Assembly: GCA_008933995.1 (NCBI GenBank)
Contig: WARS01000044.1
Location: 2,190,866 to 2,254,865 of the forward strand
Direction: 5' to 3'
DNA length: 64,000 nucleotides
From: Datnioides undecimradiatus
Lineage: Eukaryota; Chordata; Actinopteri; Lobotiformes; Datnioididae
Part shown: positions 50,901-53,900 of the stretch, in pieces
How the letters are laid out: every line of letters starts with the position of its first letter
How positions within the stretch are numbered: position 1 is the stretch's first letter
Translations under genes and position numbers: made by a program
The notes under the pieces: model-generated
Told to the model about the DNA's origin: nothing
Database searches by the model: none
The model's input: only the letters and a program-made list of their open reading frames with translations

Positions 50901-53900
50901 TCACACATACATGGTCAACCCTCTGATGCATGCAAACGATTGTTTTTTGGAGAGCATGCATGACATGAAAAAGGGGATGTTAGCAGGGAGGGAGTGAGGG
51001 AAGAGGGGGGGGGGAGGTTTACTGGTCTTACATCAAGCAGCACCTGAGAGACGGGAACAGGCACAAAGCTTGGCTGGCTTCAGGGAGAAACTCTGCACAA
51101 CTCAGAAAACCCAACACACATGGATTTATTCAAGGAAGTTGTATGACACTTTCAATGTGAATTGGTCATACCTGTAATGGGAAATACATCATATGGAAAT
51201 ACCAAGAGATACTGGGCTTTATAACATATACTGACATGTTCGGTCAGAGCCAGACATCTAGCATCACTGACAATGTTTGCTACAGGACAGTAACGGACAC
51301 TACAGAGGACAATGCTGGACAGACAGTTTCCACTCTCAGCCTGTAGGGGGCACCATTGGTTGGCAGTGTCATTCTCACCCATCCAAACGTCTCCGAAGCA
51401 GCCCTGTCCCAGCTTTCTTTGCAGTGACAGTGTTTCTCTGGACACCTCCCAGGCATCACGCCCAAGGCCCATGGTGAGCGGGGTTGAGTTGGGACAGGGC
51501 TTGGTCAGGTAATAACACAGGCCATCATTGCTGCCTGTTAGGGGAAGGAGGAGGGAGCCAAAAGGGAGGGTGGACAAGCAGAGAAAGTAGTGGAAGTGGG
51601 GGATGAAGAATGGGAGAAAAGGGTGTGGTGATGGGTGGAAAAATGGAATAAAGATGGGTGGGGGGGTGACAAAAAGGTGAGTTGAGATGATGAAACATGC
51701 ACATGCAAATGCAGAGGAGGAGGGCCCCAGCTGTGGACACCTGGATGTAAAACAAAGCTACACTTTTATTCATTAGATGCTGTGTCTGAGTCATTCTCAT
51801 CACACGCAGAATTTATTAAGAATTTGTTTCACTCCTACAGTTTCTATTCAACACACATTTGAAAACAAGTCAAGACTACTTTTACAAACTGTTTGTTGTC
51901 TGTGTGGTCCAATCCACAGGTTGCACAAAGACTCTAAACAACACAGACAGATAAACAGGGCTTTAATGTGTATTTGTGAGTGTGCAGGTATATTTACACC
52001 AGAAGTGTTCACTGATTCTCTTGTCAGCTGAACACAACCAAGACTGTATGTATACCTGCTCATCTTTTAATACATTTTTATCCAGGTGTGCTCCAGTTGT
52101 CACCTTCCCACACTGCAACACAATCCCACTATTCCTACCCATCCAGACTTCTCCAAACTGGCCGTTGCCCAATTTCTTAATCAGCTGGAGGGATTCACGG
52201 GGAATCTCCCACATATCCTTGGTCTTCACTGATAAGTCGGCCAGCTTAGGCATGCCCCGCTTACAGCTGCCAATCAAACGGCAGCACAGTCCCGCCGCTC
52301 TCTCTGAGAGACAGAGTGAGTGGAGAGACAAACAGGCAGGCGCAGAAAGAAAAGAAGCAAGAGAAAAAGAAAACAGAAGAAAAAAACAGCAAACATAGGG
52401 ATAAAGAAAGAACAAGACAGGTTGCTTTTATGCGCATATGGAATTGACAAGTTAACCAAAAGCCAAAGTACAAAGCAAAACAAACATAAACACACATTCT
52501 GAGCAGCAGCATCCTGTAAAGACACAATCCAGAGCATAAGAGCAACTAAACACAGGCAAAAAAGTCAGTGATGTACAATGAAGCCAAATCTCTCTGGTTG
52601 TTGTCATGTAAAGTCACCACCTGCAAAATGCTTGTTATATAGCAATATAGGCCACTAGGGGGCAGATTTACACTGACAGAGAGCAGAGGAAACCTAGGGC
52701 GTGAACCCTGCACATTAACAACTCTAAAGAGAACTTACATAGTTATTAATAATCAGTGGTGGGGGATGTATTCACATCCTTAACTTAAGAGAGAGCTGAT
52801 AGACATCAATATATTTATACTCCGTTACCATACTCCATTACCTATAAAATTTCAAGCTCAGAATACAAAAAAATAGAAGTACGAGTTTAAATTATTTTAT
52901 ATTTCTGTAAGTCTGTACTAATACTTCTGATAACACACAAACATTTACACATATGTATACAATTATATATACATATATACATATGTATATACATATGTAT
53001 ATGTGTGTGTGTGTGTGTGTGTATATATATACATTCTGATCTGAGCAACTGAGAAAGAAATTAAACGTCAAATAATTGTACTAGAGTAAAACGTACAATT
53101 CTTCCTCTGAACTGTAGCAGAGCATAAAGTAGCATCAAATAGAGATAAATCACTTAATTTCTAGCAGTGGTAATGTAATTACAGAATGAATCTTTCATGT
53201 GGGCAGAAAATGATTGGACAATGAGATGCATCAGAAAATGGGAACACAAACATGTTTTCATTTTGGAGAAGCAGAAAATTGTGGATGAATACTGTCCATG
53301 TACATGTTACCTGTATAGTGCTCCACGAGTTGCTGCACAGTGTCGAACTGAGATCTCGTGGTAATGTAGTAGCCACCATTGTCTAGCTTGCGGATCTTAT
53401 AATGCTTGACATGGTCTCCCTTGTTGTCGTCCCAGTCACGGATAGACAGAGAGTAAGCACCTGCACAGAGATGGGACAGGAAGAGGAATAATGGAGGGTG
53501 GAAGAGGAAAAAGAAGCATAGAGTGAGGGAAAAGTGAGAAGTGGTAAGAGAGAGAAATTGAAACTTTCAAATATTTAGAGTTGTAAGTCCCTGTTAAGCG
53601 TGTGCGTGTGTGTGGCCAATTCACCCTTGGTGGTCTCGCTCTCTCGGATGAGGAAAGTTCCCCTCTGGTTGCCATGGCCTAGCAGCTGTCTCTCTGCATC
53701 CTTCCTCCCCATCTTCCCAAAATACCACCTGTCACCATGACAACAAGACATGGGTCACCACAGCAACAGCCCACATCATGTGACCTCTGCCCTTAGACTA
53801 CATGTCAATCATTTGAAATATCTTTCGGTGTAAAATATCAGTACTTATAATACAACATACAGCTTTCATTACTCTGTGAATAATGTTGTGTATGCCTGTG

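Follow-up and report, generated by a model that had tools for sequence, protein, structure and literature searches.

A putative fish FGR orthologue carries a tandem exon pair homologous to FYN exons 7A and 7B

Introduction

The closest described system to the exon pair reported here is that of human FYN, whose exons 7A and 7B are spliced exclusively, with FynB being ubiquitous outside blood and spleen and FynT high in these tissues (PMC9741552, excerpt). The AG exclusion zone of the U2AF-repressed FYN exon 7a exceeds that of 7b (61 vs 35 nt), as does its pyrimidine tract, and 7a is called the younger copy with reference to Picard 2002 (PMC5224494, excerpt). Exon choice in FYN alters the strength of SH3-mediated autoinhibition, and 7b is anticipated to raise activity (PMC5026472, excerpt, citing Brignatz 2009); Fgr is reported to be uncoupled from control through SH3-SH2 (PMC12861248, excerpt). 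According to the excerpt of PMC9741552, only one exon of the FYN pair has survived in each of FGR, SRC, YES1, and FRK, with FGR retaining that of FynT. The timing argument that FGR arose from a pair-bearing ancestor has thus been published for the human genes, and a fish gene with both exons is new evidence for it.

To our knowledge, chicken Yrk is known with a 7A-type segment only. The Yrk protein combines this segment with a very similar kinase domain, and we take yrk to be the name that the FGR orthologue carries in zebrafish and in chicken. Two reviews, from 2020 and 2023, treat Yrk as a distinct member of the family, with chicken as the sole species of description (PMC7352436, excerpt), or as a kinase of its own whose human sequence has not been located (PMC10741856, excerpt), and a zebrafish gene named yrk is described as orthologous to chicken Yrk (PMC2654924, excerpt). 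Among the matches listed in the literature searched, which left most subscription journals outside, no FGR or Yrk gene keeping both exons was reported; automated gene annotation may already show both isoforms.

Results

A Src-family kinase gene with two versions of one exon

The window, i.e., the whole 64-kb stretch of fish DNA analysed here, contains a complete Src-family kinase gene on the minus strand, with its ATG at 56019 and its stop at 47937. Its coding exons are as follows:

55791-56019, minus strand: first coding exon (MGCVCC..., unique region)
54701-54803, minus strand: SH3 exon
53974-54072, minus strand: SH3 exon
53625-53728, minus strand: SH2 exon
53311-53460, minus strand: SH2 exon, predicted to splice to 6A or 6B
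52303-52139, minus strand: exon 6A, 165 nt, phase 1-1, FYN-7A-type; SH2-kinase linker to glycine loop GNGQFGEVW
51534-51379, minus strand: exon 6B, 156 nt, phase 1-1, FYN-7B/FGR-type; linker to glycine loop GQGCFGDVW
50505-50684, minus strand: kinase exon, predicted target of 6A or 6B splicing
49562-49638, minus strand: kinase exon
49307-49460, minus strand: kinase exon with HRDLRAAN and the activation-loop Tyr
49012-49143, minus strand: kinase exon
47937-48145, minus strand: last coding exon, tail YQPGENL and stop

The sequence-only reading had described two exons in series that encode alternative versions of the same segment, and this observation was borne out to the base in coordinates, lengths, phase 1, clean splice sites, and open frames. 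Exons 6A and 6B stand in tandem between the last SH2 exon (53460-53311) and the kinase exon at 50684-50505, with acceptor tctctcag and donor G/gtagga for 6A and acceptor cctaacag and donor G/gtgaga for 6B. Joined to the other ten coding exons, 6A gives an open frame of 533 aa and 6B one of 530 aa. Because inclusion of both exons (585 aa) and skipping of both (478 aa) also stay in frame, exclusivity is not enforced by the reading frame.

The 6A peptide shares 47/56 positions with each fish FYN 7A exon, two in all, and equally with human FYN 7A, a sequence that is provisional in its middle part. The 6B peptide matches SRC in the PDB (E 1.5e-18) and human FGR (E 4e-17), and is identical to 6A at only 24/53 positions. 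The resemblances of 6A and 6B to these exons exceed what chance would give. With 30/53 identities to human FGR and 33/53 to human SRC, 6B is overall no closer to FGR, and its assignment as an FGR exon is based on the gene in which it lies and on a small number of common residues (NDGLC, GCFGDVW).

Gene neighbourhood and gene tree point to FGR

Three further genes in the window are neighbours of FGR in its synteny block:

10627-11676, plus strand: GPR3-like intronless receptor, 349-residue open frame
14011-18699 (outer limits of matches), minus strand: WASF2-like gene
30022-35199 (outer limits of open frames), minus strand: AHDC1-like gene, DUF4683 match in one exon

Of ten ORFs scanned against Pfam, two had matches, the GPR3-like and the AHDC1-like frames. 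The GPR3-like frame scored best with GPR3, by a slight margin over GPR12 (273.8 and 270.9 bits), one exon of the WASF2-like gene is 40/40 identical to human WASF2 (provisional query), and DUF4683 is presumably a domain of AHDC1. The block in the window thus reads GPR3-like (plus), WASF2-like (minus), AHDC1-like (minus), FGR (minus), and we take the human order to be GPR3-WASF2-AHDC1-FGR.

In gene trees built from the exons outside the pair, the fish gene grouped with human FGR at 90/85 with SrcB rows and at 86/84 without them, values that are not starred. The human FGR sequence used here equals PDB 7UY0 at 445/445 aligned residues, and the fish SrcB row sB492 was omitted from the tree with human sequences. 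FYN rows were united at 100/98 and 100/96, and FYN and FGR were separated from SRC and YES at 96/93 without SrcB, but only at 62/27 with it. The alternative grouping yrk+FYN without FGR was not rejected in the tree with human sequences (p 0.08). An earlier tree of 11 fish rows, built without human sequences, gave yrk+FYN at 71/91, with none of the groupings yrk+YES (p 0.12), yrk+SRC (p 0.10), and FYN+YES (p 0.08) being rejected. Together, the GPR3-WASF2-AHDC1-FGR block and the pairing with human FGR (86-90% bootstrap) support the reading of the fish gene as an FGR orthologue, as had been proposed. Exon searches found one FGR-like locus in the genome (31/31 candidates scored for 6A, 25/25 for 6B); in a whole-protein search of the genome, the best 81 of 635 candidates were scored.

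Two details of the locus are recorded here in passing. A transposon relic with stops and frame changes, which we take to be Tc1/mariner-like, was read by eye at 57700-58690 (plus strand), directly 5' of the FGR gene. In the last coding exon (48145-47937, minus strand), the kinase C-lobe reads ERHTFEYLQ, with Pro instead of His in 7 other fish Src-family rows that have this exon and in human FGR.

One FYN gene of the same genome holds the same pair

Genome searches with 6A and 6B as queries returned 27 and 22 matches, respectively, and 10-kb loci around the genes were examined. Three 7A-type exons were found among the matches, one in the FGR gene and two in FYN genes. The FYN gene on contig C478 has 7A followed by 7B, with 165 and 156 nt, repeating the order and lengths of the FGR pair, so that FYN and FGR of one genome both hold it; the fish FYN intron is 346 nt long. 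In the glycine loop of this FYN 7B exon (L029 5195-5037, minus strand), which reads GTGCFADVFYG, Ala stands at the third loop glycine and FY replaces WM/WL. The second FYN copy, on contig C466, has a 7A exon preceded by a weaker pyrimidine tract (0.60 over 100 nt) and no detectable 7B; tblastn of the four exon peptides over this locus gave nothing convincing for a 7B relic (best E 1.3). As judged from this locus, the 7B partner appears to have been lost after gene duplication, showing that one partner can go.

Two src and two yes loci carry a single 7B-type exon each, and the same tblastn search over 10 kb of each of these loci gave nothing convincing for a 7A relic (best E 0.15 in yes_a and 0.21 in src_b). 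Four SrcB loci carry an exon type of their own. The src label finds support in the gene tree, where these loci join human SRC; the yes label, assigned by elimination, and the SrcB label are provisional. The paralogue pairs of fyn, src, and yes would fit a teleost.

Exon trees and synonymous sites place the pair before the separation of FYN and FGR

A tree built from 15 exon segments united all three 7A-type exons (100/98), and a clade of 6A with 6B was rejected (AU p 0.0030). A 13-row tree with human FYN 7A and 7B separated 7A from 7B at 100/100 (6A+6B clade, AU p 0.0006), and a 17-row tree that also held the SrcB rows again returned the 7A-type clade at 100/98 (6A+6B clade, AU p 0.0055). The trees place 6A with the FYN-7A type and 6B with the 7B type, like that of human FGR, as the sequence-only reading had it. 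When SrcB rows were included, the 7B-type side of the split reached only 78/86 (15 segments) and 79/87 (17 rows). Inside the 7A group, an arrangement with a FYN 7A clade apart from 6A had an lnL 0.08 lower (p 0.124).

Between 6A and the two fish FYN 7A exons, pS was 0.92 and 0.89, i.e., saturated, with identity at only 3/21 and 8/20 fourfold sites, while pN was only 0.12-0.13. For comparison, pS between FGR and the two FYN copies was 0.62 and 0.70 for the constant exons together, and the highest values among nine single constant exons were 0.80 and 0.78. Saturated synonymous sites together with the low pN of 6A therefore indicate old descent under strong constraint and no recent conversion. 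Because 6A groups with FYN 7A, a recent duplication is rejected, and a recent conversion is unsupported, the pair existed before FYN and FGR separated. The proposal that it predates the FYN-FGR duplication is thus supported by the exon trees, the saturated synonymous sites, and the gene tree.

For the pair, the homology, exon order, lengths, phase, integrity of frames and splice sites, and age relative to the FYN-FGR split are established. We consider it very probable that the gene is an FGR orthologue retaining ancient tandem alternative exons that are homologous to FYN 7A/7B and come down from the FYN-FGR common ancestor, with an exclusive choice between them being presumed.

A variant compatible with this explanation moves the origin further back: the exon would have been duplicated before the SRC/YES split, and SRC and YES would each have lost 7A, a loss that the excerpt of PMC9741552 states for the human genes. 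The 7B-type exons of FYN, FGR, SRC, and YES lie on one side of the branch (79/87), and a duplication on the FYN/FGR stem, modelled by joining 7A to the FYN/FGR 7B exons, has an AU p of 0.084. This value is not significant on 53 columns, and the two src and two yes loci gave no convincing 7A relic in the search above. We put the chance of this earlier origin somewhat short of even.

Alternatively, one of 6B and 6A would be a dead or unused exon, a fossil still undecayed beside the exon of the real transcript. Such loss does happen, as in the C466 FYN copy, and 6B diverges faster than 6A. Yet the frame of 6B is open, its AG and GT are intact, and its glycine loop and DAWE motif are conserved. 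Against four src/yes copies, 6B has a pN of 0.27-0.29 and a pS of 0.68-0.82, pairwise values in which the constraint may lie partly on the src/yes side. We also simulated neutral decay of a copy of a src exon (substitutions only, 5000 runs per rate), counting the runs that kept an open frame and 60% identity. None of 5000 did so at 0.5, 1.0, or 1.8 changes per site, whereas 670/5000 did at 0.25, which leaves room for a recent loss. A dead exon is on balance improbable.

Even less probable is an arrival of 6A from a FYN gene, through conversion or transfer of the exon, after which the pair would give no date for the FYN-FGR split. Such a transfer would explain the 84-85% identity of 6A to FYN 7A and the unsettled branch order in the 7A group (p 0.124), but synonymous sites between 6A and both FYN 7A exons are more diverged than in any single constant exon, so that recent conversion is unsupported and only a very old one could fit. 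A recent tandem duplication of 6A into 6B in this fish lineage, which the sequence-only reading had named as the outcome that would overturn it, has next to nothing in its favour beyond the adjacency of the exons (604 nt apart), and is ruled out by the AU tests (p 0.0006-0.0055), the 24/53 identity, and the saturated synonymous sites.

Long AG-free tracts precede both exons

The flanks of the two exons hold the following features:

52304-52424, minus strand: T-rich polypyrimidine tract preceding 6A, comprising an AG exclusion zone of 119 nt and the acceptor AG
51535-52138, minus strand: intron between 6A and 6B, 604 nt, with two GCATG (51706, 51700) and, preceding 6B, a C-rich tract of 194 nt that is free of AG

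The AG exclusion zones of 119 nt (6A, T-rich) and 194 nt (6B, C-rich) exceed all 82 measured acceptors of other exons in 11 Src-family kinase genes (88 acceptors possible). The pyrimidine-tract argument is weakened because other acceptors of the same FGR gene are also long (117, 101, and 88 nt). In the fish FYN gene on C478, the zones measure 104 nt (7A) and 35 nt (7B). Hence in FYN, both fish and human, the 7A zone is the longer, whereas in the fish FGR gene the 6B zone is the longer, with that of 6A being long but shorter than that of 6B. Long AG-free zones would fit regulated, distant branch points, with the length order reversed relative to FYN.

A motif scan was run with four patterns on 18 flanks of 300 nt (72 comparisons, 200 shuffles each). 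The two GCATG at 51706 and 51700 (minus strand), which we take to be an RBFOX-like motif, lie six bases apart and about 170 nt before 6B, and as many were found in 7/200 shuffles; YCAY occurs there in 17 copies, reached in 19/200 shuffles. Given the 72 comparisons and the stronger extremes in single-exon genes (YCAY in yes_a, 1/200; TGTG in yes_b, 0/200), the GCATG and YCAY before 6B are leads only.

The 604-nt intron looks too long to force exclusivity by crowding. Because neither the reading frame nor a short intron forces a choice, we infer that one exon per transcript would be selected by trans-acting splicing regulators acting on the long pyrimidine tracts. If FYN is a guide, the 6B form would be biased towards blood and spleen and the 6A form would be that of other tissues, and the fish gene probably makes Gln-loop and Cys-loop FGR in different tissues.

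The pair alters the linker and the P-loop

The SH3-binding linker is three residues longer in 6A than in 6B, and the glycine loop carries Cys in 9/9 7B-type rows and Gln in 4/4 7A-type rows. The human FYN 7B exon, a provisional sequence among the nine, also has the P-loop Cys. Inclusion of 6A would thus give a kinase with a three-residue-longer linker and a Gln P-loop, and inclusion of 6B one with an SRC/FGR-like linker and a Cys P-loop. Most likely, as far as can be judged from sequence, the pair represents FYN-type mutually exclusive exons that would alter the SH3-binding linker and swap the P-loop Cys (6B) for Gln (6A).

Discussion

A living gene with both exons gives direct evidence for a step so far inferred from human paralogues, namely the presence of the pair in the FYN-FGR ancestor, with FGR having lost one exon only later, lineage by lineage. 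It would mean that mammals and birds have each retained a single exon of the pair. If this is true, the Yrk puzzle gains a testable resolution, in which Yrk and FGR are one gene with different exons kept.

The pair also links exon choice to a rare P-loop cysteine. In SRC, this Cys is sulfenylated, required for activation by peroxide, and common to Yes and Fgr (PMC6207713, excerpt). It is also a site for covalent inhibitors, with HCK, which has Gln, hardly being inhibited, and it is found in only 9 human kinases, those of the Src family being SRC, YES, and FGR (PMC9814232, excerpt). This count omits FYN, whose 7B exon in this fish, as in human, has the P-loop Cys. Redox activation of SRC also requires Cys-185, which the other members of the family are said to lack, and the mechanism may be particular to Src (PMC6207713, excerpt); the P-loop Cys by itself may therefore be insufficient for redox sensitivity of FGR. 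Only tentatively, and with rather more doubt than confidence, FGR might be a second Src-family gene besides FYN that toggles the P-loop Cys by splicing, with the 6B form sensitive to peroxide and P-loop inhibitors and the 6A form not, and with a single gene retained in its Cys form in mammals (FGR) and in its Gln form in birds (Yrk). The peroxide part of this proposal is weaker than the inhibitor part because SRC also needs Cys-185.

Compared with known systems, the FGR pair resembles FYN 7A/7B in its place in the gene, its 7A-first order, its lengths of 165/156 nt, its phase, and its 7A signature, and 6B carries the FYN 7B signature DGLC...DAWE...LG-GCF. It differs in that the gene is FGR, that the third loop position is Gly in 6B and Ala in FYN 7B (GQGCFG vs GTGCFA), and that the AG-free zone of the 6B acceptor measures 194 nt, in contrast to 35 nt for fish FYN 7B. 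SRC and YES share with fish FGR 6B a 7B-type exon with the P-loop Cys, but have a single exon without a 7A partner. Mammalian FGR is alike in its neighbourhood (human order as given above), its place in the gene tree, and its 7B-type exon with NDGLC and GCFGDVW (PDB 7UY0); in contrast to human FGR, which the excerpt of PMC9741552 states to retain the FynT-type exon only, the fish gene also has 6A.
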